Shown here piece after piece: positions 1,172-11,642 of a DNA stretch of 32,325 bases; the first letter of the stretch is position 1; the number at the start of each line of letters is the position of its first letter. The DNA comes from an uncultured Bacteroidota bacterium. GTDB taxonomy: Bacteria; Bacteroidota; Bacteroidia; Flavobacteriales; Flavobacteriaceae. Below the pieces are notes generated by a model. That model was not told the origin of the DNA and did no database searches. It was given only the letters and a program-made list of their open reading frames with translations. The stretch covers positions 1-32,325 of the forward strand of contig CACLAD010000014.1 of NCBI GenBank assembly GCA_902604715.1, written 5' to 3'. Made by a program: the position numbers and the translations under genes.

Positions 1172-1771
1172 ATGCTGAAATCTAAATACAGTGCATTCGA
1201 ACTTGAGTGTGGCATAGATGAGGCCGGCAGAGGTTGTTTAGCCGGTCCCGTTACAGCGGCTGCAGTTATTTTAAAACCTGATTTTTATCACAAATTAATT
1301 GATGATTCAAAGAAACTTTCAATGACTGACAGAGAAAAATTATCAGAAATTATTATTCAAAATTCAATTTCATTTAGTGTTCAGAATGTATTCCCAAATA
1401 AAATCGACGAAGTAAATATTCTTAACGCATCAATTTTAGCAATGCACAAATGCATAAAGAATCTAAGTATCAAGCCTGAATTTTTAATTATTGATGGAAA
1501 TAAATTTAAAAATTATGATGGGATTCAACATAAAACAATAGTTAAGGGAGACGCTAAATACCTTAGTATTGCCTCGGCTTCAATTTTAGCTAAACATTCA
1601 AGAGATTCTTATATGAAAAAAATTTCTAAAAAGTTTCCAAACTATCTTTGGTTTAAAAACAAGGGTTATCCAACTAAGGAGCATAAAGAAGCTTTAAAAA
1701 AGTATGGCGTTACAAAATACCACAGAAAAAGTTTCAAGCTTTTTGATGAACAATTAACAATTGATTTTTAA
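1172..1771 (+). CDS. rnhB: Ribonuclease HII
   Basis: RNase HII cleaves the RNA strand of RNA-DNA hybrids and starts removal of ribonucleotides misincorporated in DNA. The 199-residue length is normal. The signature GIDEAGRGCLAGPV sits at residues 14-27 with catalytic D16 and E17; LIIDGN supplies D108; and the ASILAKHSRD segment supplies D145, so all four acidic catalytic residues are present. The GRG loop (19-21) used for recognising the ribonucleotide junction is intact. The gene is divergent from the porin and 23 bases upstream of a lipoprotein gene on the same strand, likely cotranscribed. The ATG start gives the expected short lead before the first motif. Confidence 0.97.
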   Translation: MLKSKYSAFELECGIDEAGRGCLAGPVTAAAVILKPDFYHKLIDDSKKLSMTDREKLSEIIIQNSISFSVQNVFPNKIDEVNILNASILAMHKCIKNLSIKPEFLIIDGNKFKNYDGIQHKTIVKGDAKYLSIASASILAKHSRDSYMKKISKKFPNYLWFKNKGYPTKEHKEALKKYGVTKYHRKSFKLFDEQLTIDF

Positions 1772-1794
1772 TTTAGTAAGTGGTTAATGTATTT

Positions 1795-3294
1795 ATGAGA
1801 AACAAATTATTAATTATTCTGATATTCTTTATTTTTTCTGCGTGTGAAAAAATTATAAAAAAAGAAATTAATTCTTATGACCTAATAACCGAAAATTCAA
1901 AAGTAATCATTTCAATAAAGAACATAGGAAAGTTCAAAAATAGTATAGATAATAACGGCTACTTAAATTCACTTGTAAACTCAAATGTGACATTAAAGAA
2001 TTTAGTCTCACAAATATCTTTGATAAACGATGATAAAGAGATTGTAATTGGACTTTACGAAGTCGATGGTCCTCTTCAGTATGATATCATTGGGTTAGAA
2101 ATTATGAATGATAGCATTACAGATAAAAAATTAAAATATGATGAAATTGATATCATTTCAAGTAATAACAAACTTATACCTGTGATTAATAATAATTATT
2201 TTGGTAAAAAATTTCAAAAAATTAATCAAACAAATATCAATTTTAGTGTAGCACTTGATAGTCTTTATACCGATAAACTATTAGCCAAACTTTTCAATAT
2301 AGAATCGAAGGATTTGAATAGAAATTTAATCTTAAATATTGATGCATCAAACAATCTGATTTCTGTAAATGGAGTGGTTGATAATTATTCTTTTGATATT
2401 CAAAAAAATGATGAAAAATTAGCTATTCAAGAGATGATTAGCTCAGAAAAAGAATTGTATTTTGATTTTAAAAATGATTTAATTGAGGATTATGATCTAA
2501 TCAGCTCAAATCTTGAAAATAACCTAAACATCTTCGACTTTGAGTCTTCAGGTTCAAATTCAGAATACTACAAAATATTCCAATTAAAGAAAGGGGATAA
2601 AATCTTAAATATCAATGGTTATATTTCAGATTTTAAAAATGAACCTTCAAACTCATTGATTGACTTAAAATTTGAATCAGGGATTACTAATGATATTGTT
2701 CTCGGTCCACTTATCGTAAAAAATCACATAAATAATACTAATGAAGTTCTTATTCAAGATTCTAAAAATATTTTGTACCTAATAAATGATCGTGGACAAG
2801 TCGAATGGACAAGAGAAATTGATGGTAAAATTATTAAAGAAATAAATCAAATTGATAGCTATAAAAATGGAAAACTTCAATATGTTTTTGCAACGGAAAA
2901 ATCATTGAACTTATTAGACAGAAAAGGACGAGATGTAGGGAAATTTCCTTTAAAATTTAAGGATAAGATAACAAGTCCAGTCTCAGTATTTGATTATGAC
3001 AAGAATAAAAACTATAGACTATTAATAACACAAAACAATGAGTTATTTATGTTTGATTCAAAGGGAAGCAGGGTAAGAGGATTTGATTACAACAAAAAAA
3101 ATAAAATAGTAACAACGCCAAAACATTTTAGAATCGGCAATAAAGACATAATTGTATTTAAAACAACTGACCAATTAACTATTCTAAATCGAAGAGGTGC
3201 TGTAAGAATTAATGCGAAAACTCTACATAACTATTCTAGTGATGATGTATTTAAATATCAAAATTTTCTTGTCACCAGTACACTAAAAAAATGA
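1795..3294 (+). CDS. Propeller-like lipoprotein, 5' part of a frameshifted gene
   Basis: This is the main part of a gene whose frame breaks at an A7 run (3285-3291), giving TGA at 3292. I chose the ATG at 1795 rather than the in-frame GTG at 1780 because it starts directly at a lipoprotein signal (MRNKLLIILIFFIFSAC, lipid Cys17). The first half has no domain I recognise. The second half carries repeated blade-like units of the form 'N-hydrophobic-x-L-hydrophobic-D-x-K/R-G', e.g. ILYLINDRGQVEW, LNLLDRKGRDVGKFPLKF and LFMFDSKGSRVRGF, suggesting a PQQ-like beta propeller on the outer or inner membrane. The frame continues at 3290 after skipping one base; the joined protein would be 622 residues. 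It follows rnhB, as a lipoprotein of this type does in related genomes as far as I recall. Function unknown. Confidence 0.8.
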   Translation: MRNKLLIILIFFIFSACEKIIKKEINSYDLITENSKVIISIKNIGKFKNSIDNNGYLNSLVNSNVTLKNLVSQISLINDDKEIVIGLYEVDGPLQYDIIGLEIMNDSITDKKLKYDEIDIISSNNKLIPVINNNYFGKKFQKINQTNINFSVALDSLYTDKLLAKLFNIESKDLNRNLILNIDASNNLISVNGVVDNYSFDIQKNDEKLAIQEMISSEKELYFDFKNDLIEDYDLISSNLENNLNIFDFESSGSNSEYYKIFQLKKGDKILNINGYISDFKNEPSNSLIDLKFESGITNDIVLGPLIVKNHINNTNEVLIQDSKNILYLINDRGQVEWTREIDGKIIKEINQIDSYKNGKLQYVFATEKSLNLLDRKGRDVGKFPLKFKDKITSPVSVFDYDKNKNYRLLITQNNELFMFDSKGSRVRGFDYNKKNKIVTTPKHFRIGNKDIIVFKTTDQLTILNRRGAVRINAKTLHNYSSDDVFKYQNFLVTSTLKK

Positions 3295-3298
3295 AATT

Positions 3299-3664
3299 GT
3301 GAAAATAGATATGAAGGGAAATACGAAACTGCAAGAGCCAATGCCTATTAATAGCAAGGTAATAAGTGACAAAGAAACAATGTTTACTTTACAAAAAAAT
3401 ATTTTATCAAATTCAAAAATCAATATTGAAATCCCATTTGGAAAATATGAAGATTTTAAAATTTTCTCTGGAAATGATAAAATTTATGTAAATATATTTG
3501 ATTCACAAAACAATAAAATTTATTTATTTGATAAAGAATTAAACTTGATTAAAGGTTTTCCAATTTCTTCAAAAGATAATGCTCATTTTATGATTGATAA
3601 AAGTAGTATTGAATTTACAACACTCACAGAGAATAAAAATATCCGATACCAAATTGTTAAATAA
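3299..3664 (+). pseudogene. C-terminal fragment of the same lipoprotein, out of frame
   Basis: The 121-codon open frame (possible GTG at 3299) continues the propeller of the upstream gene: NEIVKIDMKGNT (frame read from 3290) and KIYLFDKELNLIKGFP match the blade pattern seen upstream. It has no signal peptide and no start context of its own, so it is best read as the last blades of the upstream gene displaced by a single-base frameshift. Its 3' end overlaps the lipB 3' end by 8 bases on the other strand. Whether the gene is truly broken or the extra A is a sequencing error cannot be settled from one sequence. Confidence 0.8.
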
Positions 3665-4355
3665 ATTGAGAATTAAACGTTTTTGAAAAACAACTTTTTA
3701 ATGCCGCTTTTATCTTTTTAATATCCATTTCAGTCATATTTAATTCTTTATTCATCGATGTTACAATATTATCAGTAAGACCGCAAGGGATAATATTATT
3801 GAAATAATCTAAGTCAACATTTACATTTAGTGCGAAACCATGCATTGTTACCCATCTACTGGCACGAACGCCCATTGCACAAATTTTTTTTGGAAAGGGT
3901 GTGTCAATATCAATCCAAACACCTGTTTTGCCATCATTCCTTTCACCTTTGATTCCAAAATTATCTAAAGTTTGAATAACAGTCTGCTCCAAAAAACGCA
4001 AATACTTATGGATATCAGTGAAAAAATTTTCTAGATCCAAAATCGGATAACCAACAATTTGACCAGGACCATGATAAGTAATATCACCTCCTCTATTAAT
4101 TTTGTAAAAACTCGCATTTTTGTTTTTTAACTGATTTTCATCTATTAATAAATTTGAATAATTACCACTTTTTCCTAAAGTATAAACATGTGGATGTTCA
4201 ACAAATAAAAAATAGTTGGGTGTTTTTATATTTGTATTGTTCTTTCTATTTTTTTTCTTTATTTCAACTATTTCATCAAATAAATTTTGTTGAAAGTCCC
4301 ATGCTTCCTTATAATCCATAGTTCCCAAATCAATAAATTTAATTTGCCTATTCAT
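3657..4355 (-). CDS. lipB: Octanoyltransferase LipB
   Basis: LipB transfers octanoate from acyl carrier protein to the lipoyl domains of 2-oxoacid dehydrogenases and GcvH in the cytoplasm, the first step of lipoate synthesis. The 232-residue protein has the family signature RGGDITYHGPGQ at 88-99, the PKKICAMG segment with conserved Lys157, and the catalytic cysteine in IIPCGL (Cys191). The ATG at 4355 overlaps by one base the stop of the yqaE-like gene upstream (TAATG), so translation is probably coupled to that gene. No lipA is in the window. Confidence 0.95.
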   Translation of the reverse strand: MNRQIKFIDLGTMDYKEAWDFQQNLFDEIVEIKKKNRKNNTNIKTPNYFLFVEHPHVYTLGKSGNYSNLLIDENQLKNKNASFYKINRGGDITYHGPGQIVGYPILDLENFFTDIHKYLRFLEQTVIQTLDNFGIKGERNDGKTGVWIDIDTPFPKKICAMGVRASRWVTMHGFALNVNVDLDYFNNIIPCGLTDNIVTSMNKELNMTEMDIKKIKAALKSCFSKTFNSQFI

Positions 4356-6332: not shown

Positions 6333-6653
6333 ATGAGAAAACTCTTAGTAAGCTTTACATTTTTAATCTTTACTTCGTATTTTTCGTTTAGTTCTAACGA
6401 TTATAAATCAATTGAAGAAGTTAAATCATTAAACTATGAACTCTTTGAAGAGATTGGGCTAGATGAAAATAAAATTAATTTCGTTAGTCGAGTCATTTAC
6501 TCAACATATAAAAAGGCACAGTATATGGCATCTGAAGGTGCTACTTCTCAAAAAGCAGTTTTTCTCGACAAAGAAGCTGAGGAAATGCTCTTAAGGGTTT
6601 TGACTCAAAGTGAACTTAAGGCATTTAATGCTGTAAAGCACAAGTTAAAATAA
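6333..6653 (+). CDS. Small secreted helical protein, function unknown (paralogue of the 11322 gene?)
   Basis: I chose the ATG at 6333 over an upstream in-frame start at 6306 because it begins directly with a signal peptide (MRKLLVSFTFLIFTSYFSFS). The 106-residue product is mostly predicted helix after cleavage, ending in LLRVLTQSELKAFNAVKHKL. That end resembles the 'ILT..Q...Y' pattern of Spy/CpxP-type periplasmic chaperones, but I do not claim membership. Length and sequence pattern match the protein encoded at 11322-11642, with which it aligns end to end with a single one-residue gap over the mature part. It follows lysS by 23 bases and precedes the Smr-like gene by 10 bases, so readthrough from lysS is likely. 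Confidence 0.72.
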   Translation: MRKLLVSFTFLIFTSYFSFSSNDYKSIEEVKSLNYELFEEIGLDENKINFVSRVIYSTYKKAQYMASEGATSQKAVFLDKEAEEMLLRVLTQSELKAFNAVKHKLK

Positions 6654-6663
6654 ACCATCATTC

Positions 6664-6894
6664 TTGCTAAAAATTGATTTGCACGGTATGACCTATGCAA
6701 AGGTCGAAGAGATACTGCCAGAGTGGATAATCACTAATTATAACAACGGACATGATGACTTTGAAATAATAACTGGTAATAGCTATAGAATGAAAAGTTT
6801 AGTGAAAAAAATCTGTTCAGAAAATGGATTCATAGCCATTGAAAATTTCAATGGAAATTCCGGTTCCTTGACTGTTGGCATTGATAAAATTTAA
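6664..6894 (+). CDS. Small Smr-like domain protein
   Basis: This 76-residue protein consists of one domain resembling the Smr (small MutS-related) fold: LKIDLHGMTYAKVEEIL at the N-terminus carries the DLHG motif, and EIITGNSYRMKSLVKKICSE corresponds to the 'xHGKGxGxLR' part, though the usual HGxG is replaced by TGNS. Smr domains bind or nick nucleic acid; a stand-alone domain of this size could be an RNA endonuclease or binding protein, and the altered motif makes catalysis uncertain. The only start available is TTG at 6664, because an in-frame stop lies at 6646 and no ATG comes before the DLHG motif. Confidence 0.68.
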   Translation: MLKIDLHGMTYAKVEEILPEWIITNYNNGHDDFEIITGNSYRMKSLVKKICSENGFIAIENFNGNSGSLTVGIDKI

Positions 6895-6924
6895 TTACCA
6901 TATTATTAATGATATTAAATCGAC

Positions 6925-6952
6925 AATTTTTTCAATTTTTAATGAAAAAATT
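6925..6952. terminator. AT-only hairpin after the Smr-like gene
   Basis: A perfect 10-bp inverted repeat (AATTTTTTCA / TGAAAAAATT) with an 8-base loop lies 31 bases after the Smr-like stop. It has only one G-C pair and is in very AT-rich DNA, so it could be a weak terminator or chance. The remaining spacer 6895-7056 (162 bases) holds no gene; TATATTTT at 7015-7022 is a 7-of-8 match to the -7 consensus in front of the T9SS gene. Confidence 0.25.
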
Positions 6953-7056
6953 TGAAAAAATAATATCAGACATTATAATATCCAATACATTTTGGTTTGA
7001 AAGTTAACAAATTTTATATTTTCACCATTCTAATCTCTTTAAAACATAATATAAAC

Positions 7057-7548
7057 ATGAGAATTAATCTTAGTTTAACCATTATATTAATTTTGTTTTT
7101 TCAAATTTCTAATTCCCAAGAATTAGTTCGTGAAATGATTTCAAGTCAAGGAAATAGTGTCCTGCTAGAATCAGGTCATTATGTTTCTCAAACAATTGGT
7201 CAACAATCAATTACAGGAAATTATGATGGTCAAAATAAAGTTATTCAAGGGTTTCAACAACCATATTGGAAATATTTAATATCCAATTCAGAAGTTCTAG
7301 ACTCAATAGAAATCAGCCATTATCCGAATCCAGTCATTACAAATCTTAACTTTAATTTCTCCAACTACAACGATGGGGTAACTAATGTTTTGGTATTTGA
7401 TTTTTCGGGCAGACTTGTGATGGAAAGATCTCTCAGCGTTGAATCTGGAACAGCACAATTAAATCTTTCTAGTATCCCTAGCGGATCCTACTTGGTATAC
7501 TTAAGAAATAATAAATTAAACTATTACACAAAAATTATAAAGAAATGA
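7057..7548 (+). CDS. Minimal T9SS cargo with type A sorting domain
   Basis: The preferred ATG at 7057 begins a signal peptide (MRINLSLTIILILFFQISNS, cleavage before QELV). The mature part is short: about 60 residues with SGHYVSQTIGQQSITG and IQGFQQPYW, a pattern I recognise in small Bacteroidota T9SS proteins, followed by a type A C-terminal sorting domain at 87-163 (SHYPNPV...VFDFSGRLV...L..IPSGSYLVYL...KIIKK). The sorting domain directs export across the outer membrane by T9SS and often attachment to the cell surface. An in-frame TTG at 6997 would place 20 residues before the signal and is rejected. The stop overlaps the next start (ATGA), so translation of the two is coupled. Confidence 0.85.
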   Translation: MRINLSLTIILILFFQISNSQELVREMISSQGNSVLLESGHYVSQTIGQQSITGNYDGQNKVIQGFQQPYWKYLISNSEVLDSIEISHYPNPVITNLNFNFSNYNDGVTNVLVFDFSGRLVMERSLSVESGTAQLNLSSIPSGSYLVYLRNNKLNYYTKIIKK

Positions 7549-8183
7549 AACAATTACTAAAACTATTTATTCTACTAATTGGAATAAATCTTTATTCCCA
7601 AGAGATCAACTTCTCTGTGGGAAGCAACTTTTCTGACTATTCATTTGAGGTAAACGAAAACTTTAGCGCAAGTGGAATGGGGTCATATGCTGAAATTGGC
7701 TACACAAAGTTACTTGGCAAAAAAACAAGCAAAAGCCTAAGCTACTCTGTAAGTTTAAATCTGAATGAATATAATGCATCAACTGGAAATATGGCAAGCT
7801 ATTATGAATGGCAAACAAGCTTTATTGGTGTTAAGAATTCAATTAATATTCCAGTTGTCACAATTGCTGACGTTATGAAGTTTGAACTTTCAGCTGGGGT
7901 TAATTTAAGCCATATAGTCAAGGGCAAGCAGCTGATTAATTCTATGGTTTATGATATATCAACTAACTCGGAGTTTGACGGACTAAATGCATGGACTGAT
8001 TTGGGAATAAGCTTAAAATTTGATTTAAAAGAAGATGTTAAGTTTGCAATCGGATATTCTATCTCAGATAATAAGCAATTAACCGGATCTAACGATTCTT
8101 TAATTTTTGATGAACAAGCTGTCGATAATGTTGAAATTAATAATGATAACATAAGACTAAGTCTCATTTACATACTAAACTAA
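7545..8183 (+). CDS. Outer-membrane beta-barrel protein, function unknown
   Basis: The 212-residue protein has a signal peptide (MKQLLKLFILLIGINLYSQ) and then alternating amphipathic strands, e.g. INFSVGSNFSDYSFEV, YAEIGYTKLLG, SLSYSVSLNLNEY, KFAIGYSIS, ending in NIRLSLIYIL, consistent with a small 8-10 strand outer-membrane barrel. The final residue is Asn rather than the usual Phe. Its start overlaps the T9SS cargo gene by 4 bases and it ends 5 bases before the fibre gene. It may anchor or insert that surface protein; this is inferred from position only. Confidence 0.75.
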   Translation: MKQLLKLFILLIGINLYSQEINFSVGSNFSDYSFEVNENFSASGMGSYAEIGYTKLLGKKTSKSLSYSVSLNLNEYNASTGNMASYYEWQTSFIGVKNSINIPVVTIADVMKFELSAGVNLSHIVKGKQLINSMVYDISTNSEFDGLNAWTDLGISLKFDLKEDVKFAIGYSISDNKQLTGSNDSLIFDEQAVDNVEINNDNIRLSLIYILN

Positions 8184-8188
8184 TAATT

Positions 8189-11100
8189 ATGAAAAAATAT
8201 ATTACACTATTAATTTTTAGCCTGCTGACTTTTACAGGTCTATCCCAAGACAATGGAATAACCTATCAGGCTGTAATTTACAATCCAAATGGGCAATCAT
8301 TACCTGGTGAAGACGATACACACAGTCCACTTGTAGAGACTGACATTTGCCTAAAGTTTTCAATAATGGGCAACGGACTTGAATATGAAGAAACAGTTCA
8401 AACAACAACTGACAAATTTGGAATGGTAAATTTAAAAATTGGTACAAATACCCAAACCGGGGGTTCTGCCGGTTCTTTACAAGACATAGATTGGGATAGT
8501 GGCCAGAAATCAATGAGAGTTGAACTAAATGCAATTGGTAATTGCAATAGCTTTGTTCAAATTAGCTATCAAACTTTTAGTTATGTCCCTTTTGCGTATT
8601 ATGCAATAAATGAAGGAAATACAACTGATATTTCAGCATTAGAAGAGGCATTAGCTGAAAATACAGCTGCAGATGCAGAAGAGTCTGCTGCTGGTGATGC
8701 CGCCGATCAGGCGCTACAAGAAGCAATTGATGCAAATGCTGCTGCAGATGCTGAAGAATCAGAGGCAGGTGCTGCTGCACTTCAAGCTGCCATAGATGCA
8801 AACGCTGCTGCTGATGCAGAGGAATCAGCAGCAGGTACCGCAGCTGATTTAGCAATACAAGCTATAGTTGAGGGTGCAATTCTTGAGGCAACAGCTGCAA
8901 TAACTGCTAACACTGTAGCTATTGCAACAACACAGGCTGATGTTGATCAAAACGAAGCTGATAGTGATGCAGCTGATGCGGCTATACAAGCAATAATCGA
9001 TGCGGCCATTACTGAGGCAACAGCTGCAATAATTGCCAACACTGTAGCTATTGCAACAACACAGGCTGATGTTGATCAAAATGAAGCTGATGGTGACGCG
9101 GCAGATGCTGCACTTCAAGCTGCAATTGATGCTAACGCTGCTGCAGATGCAGAAGAATCTGCTGCAGGAGATGCTGCAGATGCTGCACTTCAAGCTGCTA
9201 TAGATGCTGTTGAGGATGCCGCAGTAACGCAATTAAGCGAACTATCTGATGTTTTAGTAGAAAATAATTCTTTGTTTGTTGGTAATGATCCATCAGCTAC
9301 AACTAATACAGCACAGGCAAACGTTAGCTTAGGTTTAACAGCTTTAGACGAAATTACGTCAGGTGACAGAAATACTGCTGTTGGACACAATGCATTAACT
9401 GAAGCCAAGGCTGGAATTAATAATGTTGCAATGGGTTATAATACACTTAATAATGTCACTTCAGGAAATTATAACGTTGGTATAGGAAATTCTGCTGGTT
9501 CAAATGTAGTCGGTGGGTCTGGCAATGTTTTTATTGGAAATAATGCAAACACTGGAAGTAATCAGGCTGGTCCAGCAAACAGAATTGCAATTGGTTCTGC
9601 TGCAAACGTTACTCAAAATAATACTGCAGTAATTGGTAATGATCTTGTAACAAGTGTTTACATGAATGAAGAAGGTCAGGCAATGGTTTATGCAAAGGGA
9701 ATTACATTTGGTGATGATACATCAATGGAAACTGCGGCTGCTTCAGCTGCTGATACTCAAGCCGCTGATCAAGCTCTTCAAGATGCAATTGATGCCAATG
9801 CTGCTGCTGATGCGGAAGAATCTGCTGCTGGAGATGCTGCAGATGCTGTACTTCAAGCTGCAATTGATGCTAACGCTGCTGCCGATGCAGAAGAATCTAC
9901 TGCCGGAGATGCTGCAGATGCTGCACTTCAAGATGCAATTGACGCTAATGCTGCTGCTGATGCAGTTGAATCTGCAGATGGAGATGCTGCTGATCAAGCA
10001 ATTGTGGATTCCCTAGATAATTTAGATCTTTCCGTTGCTGGGGACAATGGTGTATTTAATGTCGATGTTTATTCTGGAGATAATTCACCTGAAGAAACTT
10101 TATTAATCATTGGAACTAACAATGAAGTTGAAACAGACGGTTCAACTGATAATCAAATTCAAATAGGTTTACCTGATAATGTAGTAATAACTGGAAACCT
10201 GACGGTTGGTGGTGAAATTAGTTCACCAACAATTGATGACTTACTATCTACAATTTCTGAATTAAGTGAGCAAGTTAGTGCTTTAAGCGAACAGGTTTCA
10301 ACCCTTGAACAATTACATGTTCCTGTAATCTCTGCAAGTGCTGGTTTATCATATAGTTTCAATTTATCGACATTTGATTATTTATGTCCAAATCCGGATG
10401 AAACTTCATTTATTAATGCGGTCATTGCCATGGTAGAGTCACCATCAGCGACAGATTTAGACGATGGAGATTTGACTGGAACTATTGAAACTGAAACTGA
10501 TATTACCAATTTTGCACCTGGTTCCTACACTATATCTTACAATGTTACAGATTCTGATGGAAATGCTGCAGAGGAATTAGTTCAATCTATTGAAATAACC
10601 GATGATGTAGCCCCAGTAATTACAATTAGTGATAATGCTATTACATCTTTAGCGGTTGGTGGTGATTTTGAAGTTGCCGATGCTAGTGCTAATGATTGTG
10701 TTGACGGTGAAGTGGAATTATCTGTTACTAGTGATGTTGATACAAATACTGCCGGATCATATACTGTTACATATCAAGCAACTGATAGCTCAGGAAATAT
10801 CTCGATTGAGTCATATGGCGTTACTGTTACAGCAACTGTTTTAGTTTCAGAATCATATGCAATAAATTCAATGGATCCAAGCGTGTTTACAGATCCATTT
10901 TGGACTTTCAACGAGGGCCCTGGATGTGATCCTGATGAATTCTATTATTGTATGTTTATGGGTAATGATCATGTTGAGGTAACTATTCCATCAGATGCAT
11001 ACACTGCAACTCCATCAAGTATTGAAGTTTCGGTTACATTTGATTACTTGGATTGGTATTATGATTTAGACACTGGAGATTTGGGTCCATCAATGTATCT

Positions 11101-11311
11101 TTCTATTAATGGTCAAGAAAAAGAATTAGCATATAGTGGTATAGAATATTATTGTGAAGGTGCCCCAGGAGCTTGGCTGACTGTAACCTATGAATTAGAA
11201 GTCGATCAGGCTAGTTGGTCTAATTCAAACAAACTATACATATGGAATAGTTGTTTTGTTTTGGCACCAAATGCTGATGGAAATTATATAGAATTGACGT
11301 TTAACTACTAA
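8189..11311 (+). CDS. Large modular surface fibre/adhesin with Ala-rich repeats
   Basis: The 1040-residue protein has a signal peptide (1-20), then modules in this order. Residues 23-140: a Bacteroidota N-terminal domain (GITYQAVIYNPNGQ ... FGMVNLKIG ... FSYVPFAYYA), recurrent before collagen-like or coiled-coil regions. About 149-344: alanine-rich repeats around LQAAIDANAAADAEESAAG. 345-512: YadA-head/tail-fibre-like repeats (NTAVGHNAL, NNVAMGYNTL, NYNVGIGNSAG, GNVFIGNNA). 514-606: a second alanine-rich block. 607-680: a beta segment with VITGNLTVGG. 681-710: a short heptad coiled coil (LSEQVSALSEQVSTLEQL). 711-887: two DUF5011/Ig-like domains (ATDLDDGDLTG, APGSYTISYNVTDSDGN, VTYQATDSSGN). 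888-1040: a cysteine-containing beta domain. The pattern suggests a trimeric stalk-and-head adhesin. No T9SS sorting domain is evident at its C-terminus. It sits in an operon with a T9SS cargo and a barrel protein. Confidence 0.85.
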   Translation: MKKYITLLIFSLLTFTGLSQDNGITYQAVIYNPNGQSLPGEDDTHSPLVETDICLKFSIMGNGLEYEETVQTTTDKFGMVNLKIGTNTQTGGSAGSLQDIDWDSGQKSMRVELNAIGNCNSFVQISYQTFSYVPFAYYAINEGNTTDISALEEALAENTAADAEESAAGDAADQALQEAIDANAAADAEESEAGAAALQAAIDANAAADAEESAAGTAADLAIQAIVEGAILEATAAITANTVAIATTQADVDQNEADSDAADAAIQAIIDAAITEATAAIIANTVAIATTQADVDQNEADGDAADAALQAAIDANAAADAEESAAGDAADAALQAAIDAVEDAAVTQLSELSDVLVENNSLFVGNDPSATTNTAQANVSLGLTALDEITSGDRNTAVGHNALTEAKAGINNVAMGYNTLNNVTSGNYNVGIGNSAGSNVVGGSGNVFIGNNANTGSNQAGPANRIAIGSAANVTQNNTAVIGNDLVTSVYMNEEGQAMVYAKGITFGDDTSMETAAASAADTQAADQALQDAIDANAAADAEESAAGDAADAVLQAAIDANAAADAEESTAGDAADAALQDAIDANAAADAVESADGDAADQAIVDSLDNLDLSVAGDNGVFNVDVYSGDNSPEETLLIIGTNNEVETDGSTDNQIQIGLPDNVVITGNLTVGGEISSPTIDDLLSTISELSEQVSALSEQVSTLEQLHVPVISASAGLSYSFNLSTFDYLCPNPDETSFINAVIAMVESPSATDLDDGDLTGTIETETDITNFAPGSYTISYNVTDSDGNAAEELVQSIEITDDVAPVITISDNAITSLAVGGDFEVADASANDCVDGEVELSVTSDVDTNTAGSYTVTYQATDSSGNISIESYGVTVTATVLVSESYAINSMDPSVFTDPFWTFNEGPGCDPDEFYYCMFMGNDHVEVTIPSDAYTATPSSIEVSVTFDYLDWYYDLDTGDLGPSMYLSINGQEKELAYSGIEYYCEGAPGAWLTVTYELEVDQASWSNSNKLYIWNSCFVLAPNADGNYIELTFNY
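8633..9219 (+). repeat. Coding repeats, first Ala-rich block (75-bp and 129-bp units)
   Basis: Four copies of the AADAEES motif occur here. The full 25-residue unit (75 bp, LQAAIDANAAADAEESAAG plus DAADAA) is interleaved with a 43-residue unit (129 bp) beginning EATAAI at 8885 and 9014. The copies differ at many third positions, so they are not recent duplications, but they could still recombine. Confidence 0.85.
9727..10007 (+). repeat. Coding repeats, second Ala-rich block (75-bp units)
   Basis: Three consecutive 75-bp units carry AADAEES, AADAEES and AADAVES. The second unit here is nearly the same at DNA level as the unit starting near 9114 in the first block, so the two blocks flanking the head domain share an origin. 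Confidence 0.85.
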
Positions 11312-11321
11312 AAATAAAAAA

Positions 11322-11642
11322 ATGAAAAAAACAGTTTTTACACTAATATTTTTATTTTCAATCTTTACTGGATTTTCACAAACCAATGAAGAAATAAATA
11401 ATTTCAAAGAAAATAACAATAATTTATTAAATGAACTAAATGTAGAAAATGATCAGCTTAATGATATTATAGCTTTAACGCTAAAATATAATGAAAGAAA
11501 GCAATCATTAGAATCAAATGGTGCTGATGGTAAATTTATCCAAAAAAACATGAAAGGTTTTGAAATCAGACTAAAATCAATTCTTAACACTGAACAGTAC
11601 AGAAAATATAACGGATTGAAGGATAAGTTTGAGTTTAATTAA
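11322..11642 (+). CDS. Small secreted helical protein, function unknown
   Basis: The 106-residue protein starts 10 bases after the fibre stop and has a signal peptide (MKKTVFTLIFLFSIFTGFSQ). The mature part is Asn/Glu/Lys-rich helix (NNNNLLNELNVENDQLNDII) and ends in LKSILNTEQYRKYNGLKDKF, resembling the 'LT..Q...Y' ends of Spy-like periplasmic proteins. It aligns with the equal-length protein at 6333-6653. As last gene of the fibre operon, followed by a strong hairpin, it may be a periplasmic chaperone or accessory for fibre export; that role is inferred from position only. Confidence 0.75.
   Translation: MKKTVFTLIFLFSIFTGFSQTNEEINNFKENNNNLLNELNVENDQLNDIIALTLKYNERKQSLESNGADGKFIQKNMKGFEIRLKSILNTEQYRKYNGLKDKFEFN

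Follow-up and report, generated by a model that had tools for sequence, protein, structure and literature searches.

A linked T9SS mini-cargo, OmpA-like barrel and fibre gene set in Bacteroidota as a candidate surface-adhesin assembly

The window, the whole 32,325-nucleotide stretch of DNA that was analysed, encodes a mini-cargo, a barrel and a fibre that, judged from their sequences and genomic positions, are a conserved unit, inherited together. The association of the three genes is more than chance: in a sample of 397 family genomes, the barrel occurs in 43 of 237 genera, nearly always with its neighbours. We propose, with a probability of roughly 60%, that the three proteins build one surface-adhesin assembly, in which a fibre resembling mosaic adhesive trimers (MAT) would be seated on the barrel and a T9SS-exported mini-adaptor. 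The separate parts are of known kinds. Their layout (Table 1) agrees with the first-pass annotation, which had described a 163-residue neighbour made of a signal, about 60 residues and a type A sorting domain, as PF18962 and TIGR04183 matches now confirm, and a barrel protein between cargo and fibre with a 4-base overlap, as the coordinates confirm for the cargo and barrel genes.

Table 1. Features of the three-gene set, in positions of the window
Feature	Position	Strand	Basis or remark
Mini-cargo gene, 163 aa	7057..7548	+	Signal peptide (by eye), ~60-residue module and T9SS type A sorting domain
Cargo N-terminal module	7120..7281	+	Alignment of 43 sequences; genome search
Cargo type A sorting domain (TIGR04183 / PF18962)	7321..7545	+	Profile matches
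Barrel gene, 212 aa	7545..8183	+	Predicted eight-stranded OmpA-like outer-membrane barrel
Fibre gene, 1040 aa	8189..11311	+	Signal peptide (by eye); no sorting domain found; starts 5 bases after barrel
Fibre base, ~123-residue beta domain directly after signal peptide	8249..8617	+	Conserved in relatives; weak MAT-N match
First Ala/Asp/Glu-rich stalk	8636..9262	+	Limits by eye; tandem repeats 8852-9120 and 9137-9186
Shaft segment resembling phage tail-spike / virion structural proteins	9275..9748	+	PHROG matches within residues 363-520
Second stalk, 75-base (25-residue) tandem repeats	9776..9994	+	Repeat analysis
Ig-like domain PF16403	10619..10813	+	Better of two stretches, residues 811-875
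C-terminal beta domain, four cysteines, fast-diverging presumed tip (residues ~887-1040)	10847..11308	+	Limits by eye

How firmly are the three genes linked? The barrel was matched in 4 genomes when 60 relatives were searched, and at 51 places in 48 genomes among the 397 family genomes. Of 53 barrel loci (the 51 plus those of G009 and G018), 51 have a fibre base and 48 a cargo by local profiles. The two loci that lack a fibre (L040 and L067) lie on contigs that end just past the genes. Five loci have no cargo profile match; two of them (L081 and L083) start within the barrel, one (L075) has a diverged neighbour that resembles a sorting domain by eye, and the cargo is not detected at L079 and L084. 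Since the local profiles were trained on the same loci, each part was searched separately in the same 397 genomes. The cargo module lies within 5 kb of a barrel or fibre in 50 of 53 places, the barrel lies near a fibre in 49 of 51 (the other two at contig ends), and the fibre base, at 99 bits or more, lies near a barrel in 56 of 62. On inspection of the six fibre places without a barrel match, five (L117-L121) hold a diverged barrel and a cargo, and L116 has a cargo and no barrel that we could find. Two of the three stray cargo matches are at a contig end (L245) or followed by fibre-like frames of another type, as judged by eye (L246). The third (L247, in G356) was not counted as evidence, being a possible deletion or assembly join: in its 812-aa frame (1583-4021, minus strand), an S74-like fibre is joined to the cargo module and to a sorting domain that is cut short; the frame may be a natural fusion, a deletion or an assembly join.

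Named genomes were scanned with the fibre base alone, using a narrower alignment after the initial one proved too diverse for contig scanning. The first-pass annotation had raised the question of whether the genes come apart in relatives; all three are found together in 76 of the 79 named loci. Of the three incomplete loci, two have a fibre that starts at the end of a contig; in the third, the fibre comes after a fibre-like frame that lies close to the start of its contig. The hosts of the 79 loci are, by record labels, mostly Flavobacteriaceae; others include Flexithrix dorotheae and genomes from metagenomes with the labels Cyclobacteriaceae, Marinilabiliales and Bacteroidales. Among the hosts that can be cultured are Winogradskyella, Psychroserpens and Aureisphaera. 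The counts from the family sample and the named genomes are not additive because some organisms occur in both sets. Where the order is cargo-barrel-fibre, the median gap between cargo and barrel is 2 bases in both sets (n=36 and n=53), and linkage is kept despite varying gene order and one inverted barrel. In a phylum sample, the barrel profile matches 7 of 395 genomes, and two of the loci (L250 and L251) have none of the other genes on inspection; the set is thus uncommon in this sample.

Such linkage could also arise if three independent surface proteins merely shared one promoter. All three resemble envelope proteins, from which common regulation could be imagined, but an association that extends across many genera and survives both order changes and an inversion, together with a cargo module that is rarely found elsewhere (3 of 53 places), makes this explanation improbable.

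The loci vary in other respects. At L194, the barrel gene (6609-7271, minus strand) is inverted relative to the cargo and fibre and still adjacent to them, and seven loci (L044, L050, L053, L057, L061, L069 and L071) carry a tandem pair of fibre genes behind a single cargo and barrel. In the window, the three genes are flanked by two signal-peptide-like proteins of ~105 aa (6336-6653 and 11322-11642; 23% identity, E 3e-5), and G009 keeps a diverged gene at each of these positions. In 33 of the 79 named loci, a member of one protein family, usually longer than 1000 aa, lies within 2.5 kb; the examples shown contain repeats and end, by eye, in a type A-like tail. Regulators named by eye also occur near the named loci, of TPR-HTH type in 28 of 79 and response regulators in 10 of 79.

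The mini-cargo resembles T9SS type A cargo proteins (TIGR04183) in having a signal peptide, called by eye as in the fibre, and a sorting domain, and differs from them in its tiny passenger. The sorting domain spans residues 89-163 (PF18962, E 3.5e-12; TIGR04183, 48 bits against a cut-off of 23), and TIGR04183 matches all 48 cargos scanned (E <= 1; best 2.7e-17). No database domain matched residues 21 to 88 or thereabouts; in relatives, an alignment of 43 sequences gives this module the consensus Y...QSIGQ.SVIGT....RQGF.QP, or QSIGQ-SVIG...QGF type. Because the passenger is only about 60 residues long, the mini-cargo is probably an adaptor and not an enzyme. The window genome contains the T9SS translocon (SprA TIGR04189, 2711 bits) and 33 type A signals.

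By prediction, the barrel is small and closed to protein-sized traffic. Its AlphaFold model (alignment of 75 sequences; pLDDT 89.2) has eight long strands, and the closest structure by Foldseek is OmpA (E 1.7e-8). Structural alignment of the model gives Z 18.0 for OmpA (167 residues, 3.1 A) and Z 18.4 for NspA (155 residues, 2.9 A). A profile search of PDB sequences with the barrel returned nothing useful. OMP_b-brl PF13505 is matched by 33 of the 75 barrels scanned, and only two NCBIfam families match any of the 75 (E 0.01), neither of them PorP/SprF. The window barrel shares the predicted eight strands with OmpA-type barrels but has no Pfam match, PF13505 included, and no periplasmic domain, whereas some relatives have a C-terminal OmpA domain. 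Among six relatives' barrels scanned, four (L153, L160, L080 and L121) have a C-terminal OmpA domain PF00691, one (L075) has an N-terminal SPOR domain and one (L047) has neither. Peptidoglycan binding is established for the OmpA and SPOR domain families, and the presence of these domains on some barrels thus points to the barrel as an anchor. Could the barrel instead be the channel through which the fibre is exported? It is the sole predicted integral outer-membrane protein of the set, yet an OmpA/NspA-type barrel of eight strands (best matches at Z about 18) is predicted to have no protein-sized pore, and the T9SS shuttles PorV and PorP have 14 strands according to excerpts of PMC9143113. A channel function is therefore scarcely credible.

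The fibre combines a conserved base with a fast-changing end. The base is modelled as a six-strand beta domain (pLDDT 82.3; 85 sequences). Foldseek finds no match to it in the PDB or viral sets with E < 0.001, a profile search of PDB sequences gives nothing useful, and VIA-align returns middling matches to Ig-like domains (best Z 6.5); given the Foldseek and VIA-align results, we claim no fold relative for the base. The YadA-type domain is the C-terminal membrane anchor of trimeric autotransporters (type Vc), and it matches neither the whole fibre nor its last 250 residues.

The far end of the fibre was examined for a sorting signal. The first-pass annotation had described a cysteine-bearing C-terminal beta domain without a recognisable sorting domain, and this description holds: the domain has four cysteines, and Pfam and NCBIfam profile scans of the window fibre give no sorting-domain match. 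It had also offered the reading that this domain is an unrecognised sorting or attachment domain, and had asked for a confident T9SS match there. None is found in the window fibre or in the last 250 residues of 52 fibres, for which no sorting domain is among all 16 Pfam families matched at E 0.005. At E 1, no sorting family is among the NCBIfam matches listed for the same ends (25 of 60 families), so that any sorting match outside these would concern one fibre only, at E above 0.026. Peptidase_G2, an autoproteolytic cleavage domain, is instead found on 18 of the 52 ends at E 0.005 (19 at E 1), and other ends are coiled-coil-like by eye. The ends share two nearly invariant columns in 587 and no common conserved region.

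Comparison of near relatives brings out the same contrast. Between the window fibre (G000) and that of its nearest relative, G009, 136 of 145 aligned positions are identical in the base, 528 of 570 in residues 146-715, 68 of 156 in residues 716-886 and 46 of 144 in the last domain. Over the 60 closest of 360 fibre pairs, mean identity is 93% in the base and 49% in the last 150 residues, although the same genome recurs in some of these pairs and the end domain is kept in some. The last 154 residues of the G009 fibre contain zero cysteines, so the cysteines are not a conserved feature of the end domain. Because the bases are conserved while the ends diverge, the last domain looks like a variable tip and not a hidden signal, and the fibre looks like a constant base with a variable tip. 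One might suppose the beta-rich C-terminal part of a presumed surface protein from a T9SS bacterium to be a novel T9SS sorting or attachment domain. However, ends that vary among close relatives over near-identical bases, that include Peptidase_G2 and coiled-coil-like types and that lack a common conserved region disfavour this reading, which we regard as very improbable.

A constant base below a variable tip recalls the MAT fibres of Bdellovibrio. Excerpts of PMC10769870 describe how this bacterium displays MAT fibres, in which a beta-rich N-terminal domain about 130 residues long follows the signal peptide and the tips vary; the excerpts add that the surface partner held by the N-terminal domain 'awaits further study'. 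The fibres studied here likewise have a signal peptide followed by a conserved beta-rich base (~130 residues in MAT, ~123 here), a long shaft with phage-spike-like parts and variable C-terminal ends; some MAT ends are S74-type, and Peptidase_G2 ends occur in 18 of 52 relatives here. They thereby show the MAT feature of a variable C-terminal tip on a conserved base, and the position and size of the base fit the MAT N-terminal domain. The MAT profile NF053851 (Bdello_MAT_N) is matched by 82 of 85 bases at E <= 0.01 (best 5.5e-10). The window base itself matches weakly, at 18.5 bits (E 0.0014) against a cut-off of 60; its match starts within the signal peptide and takes in the profile's first half. 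For six more distant bases the scores are 35 to 49 bits, with the same cut-off. A search of the window genome with NF053851 found nothing, and no control scored in that search either. The two systems differ in that a barrel and a T9SS mini-cargo accompany the fibre here and in that the profile scores shown lie below the curated cut-off. From these profile and layout comparisons, the fibre bases are probably related to the MAT base.

The pairing of base and cargo-type module extends further. We inspected 44 further loci with more distant bases, a non-random set picked from the listed matches. A local profile detects a sorting domain in none of their 81 fibres, eight of which run past the end of the locus sequence used. 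A profile built for the distant cargo modules drifted into the fibres and was set aside in favour of a fixed pattern. Under this rule, 22 of the 44 loci have a cargo-type module protein within 400 bases on the same strand and the other 22 have none, a count that may be low because the pattern missed module-like neighbours in L126, L237 and L240. By local profile, the 22 module neighbours comprise 13 with a sorting domain, seven without and two that are cut off. The two module groups align at 95.4% probability (a single comparison) and the bases at 100%. Base and module thus seem, from these alignments and neighbourhoods, to be partners beyond the barrel-containing set. The module also heads proteins of 287-349 aa with an FLQGP/LLQGP stretch at seven loci (L127, L132, L135, L228, L233, L235 and L239); these proteins adjoin related fibres and have no sorting domain by local profile.

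In the assembly that we propose, the barrel in the outer membrane would be the seat of the fibre, and in some lineages a fused OmpA or SPOR domain would tie this seat to peptidoglycan. The T9SS would carry the mini-cargo out, after which the processed cargo module may stay at the surface, bind the fibre base and complete the seat. The tip would point outward and bind a glycan, a cell or a surface. We infer for this set the contacts among module, base and barrel, as well as the display, adhesin function and trimeric state of the fibre. The earlier suggestion that cargo and barrel form an export or anchor platform survives in part: a platform for the fibre fits the linkage, the OmpA and SPOR fusions and the related pairing of fibre and module elsewhere, but export through a predicted eight-stranded OmpA/NspA-type barrel without a protein-sized pore does not. 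Against the assembly stand the loci without a detectable cargo (L079 and L084) or barrel (L116), the presence of the barrel in just 3 of the 21 genomes of the window's own genus (G000, G009 and G018), several of the 21 being incomplete, the weak, half-profile MAT-N match of the window base and the close pairs that keep their end domain.

Static adhesin anchoring has been proposed in print, in the available parts of PMC9143113 and PMC12618676, and PorE-PorP-PG1035 is a published analogue in which the barrel has 14 strands and peptidoglycan is bound by a separate protein (PMC9143113, in excerpt). Type B systems (PG1035 or SprB-SprF, with PorP/SprF and PorE), as these excerpts present them, share with the present set an adhesin, a cognate barrel and a peptidoglycan link, often co-encoded. 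In those systems, however, the adhesin bears its own type B signal and has a 14-stranded shuttle as its barrel, whereas in the present set the fibre has no signal that we could find, the barrel has eight predicted strands and a separate mini-protein bears the signal.

How would the fibre cross the outer membrane? It may leave together with the mini-cargo, or along the same route as the MAT fibres of T9SS-less bacteria. In the former case, the signal would act in trans: the mini-cargo would bind the base of the fibre while still in the periplasm, and the whole complex would then pass through the SprA translocon by virtue of the cargo's type A domain. The division of labour favours this idea, given that 48 of 48 cargos scanned have the signal while no sorting family is listed for the 52 fibre ends, that the distant-base loci repeat the pattern (0 of 81 fibres and 13 of 22 module neighbours with a sorting domain), that the two module groups align at 95.4% probability and that the mature cargo, being so small, can hardly do much by itself. 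However, seven of the 22 module neighbours lack a sorting domain (a further two are cut off), so the module need not be tied to the T9SS. Excerpts of PMC12618676 describe the T9SS as confined to one phylum, and Bdellovibrio, which displays MAT fibres (PMC10769870, in excerpt), lies outside it; the T9SS therefore need not serve such a fibre, and export in trans is possible and not needed. In addition, no precedent for a trans-acting type A signal was found in the excerpted texts of PMC12618676, PMC9143113, PMC10994853, PMC10202324 and PMC5445135. We therefore treat export in trans as a tentative idea that is on balance unlikely. Its fuller form is more doubtful by a shade: a docking module with a sorting domain would export a MAT-like trimeric fibre that has no signal, and would afterwards form the seat of this fibre together with an OmpA-like barrel that can be linked to peptidoglycan, as one case of a wider pairing of fibre base and docking module in Bacteroidota.

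A literature search over titles and abstract openings found no description of the three-gene set, and none was found that combines 'mosaic adhesive trimer' with a word beginning 'bacteroid'. The seated assembly, if true, would describe an adhesin anchor built on an eight-stranded barrel and not on a PorP/SprF shuttle, and it would widen the rules of the T9SS to cover an adhesin that has no signal of its own and is served by a neighbouring protein consisting of little else. Two genetically linked partners accompany the present fibres, whose base is probably related to that of MAT, which makes the question of the MAT surface partner approachable. That the tips vary while the bases stay constant suggests that marine bacteria have here an adaptable means of recognition, and the three-gene set offers a route to learning how such fibres stay held on cells.
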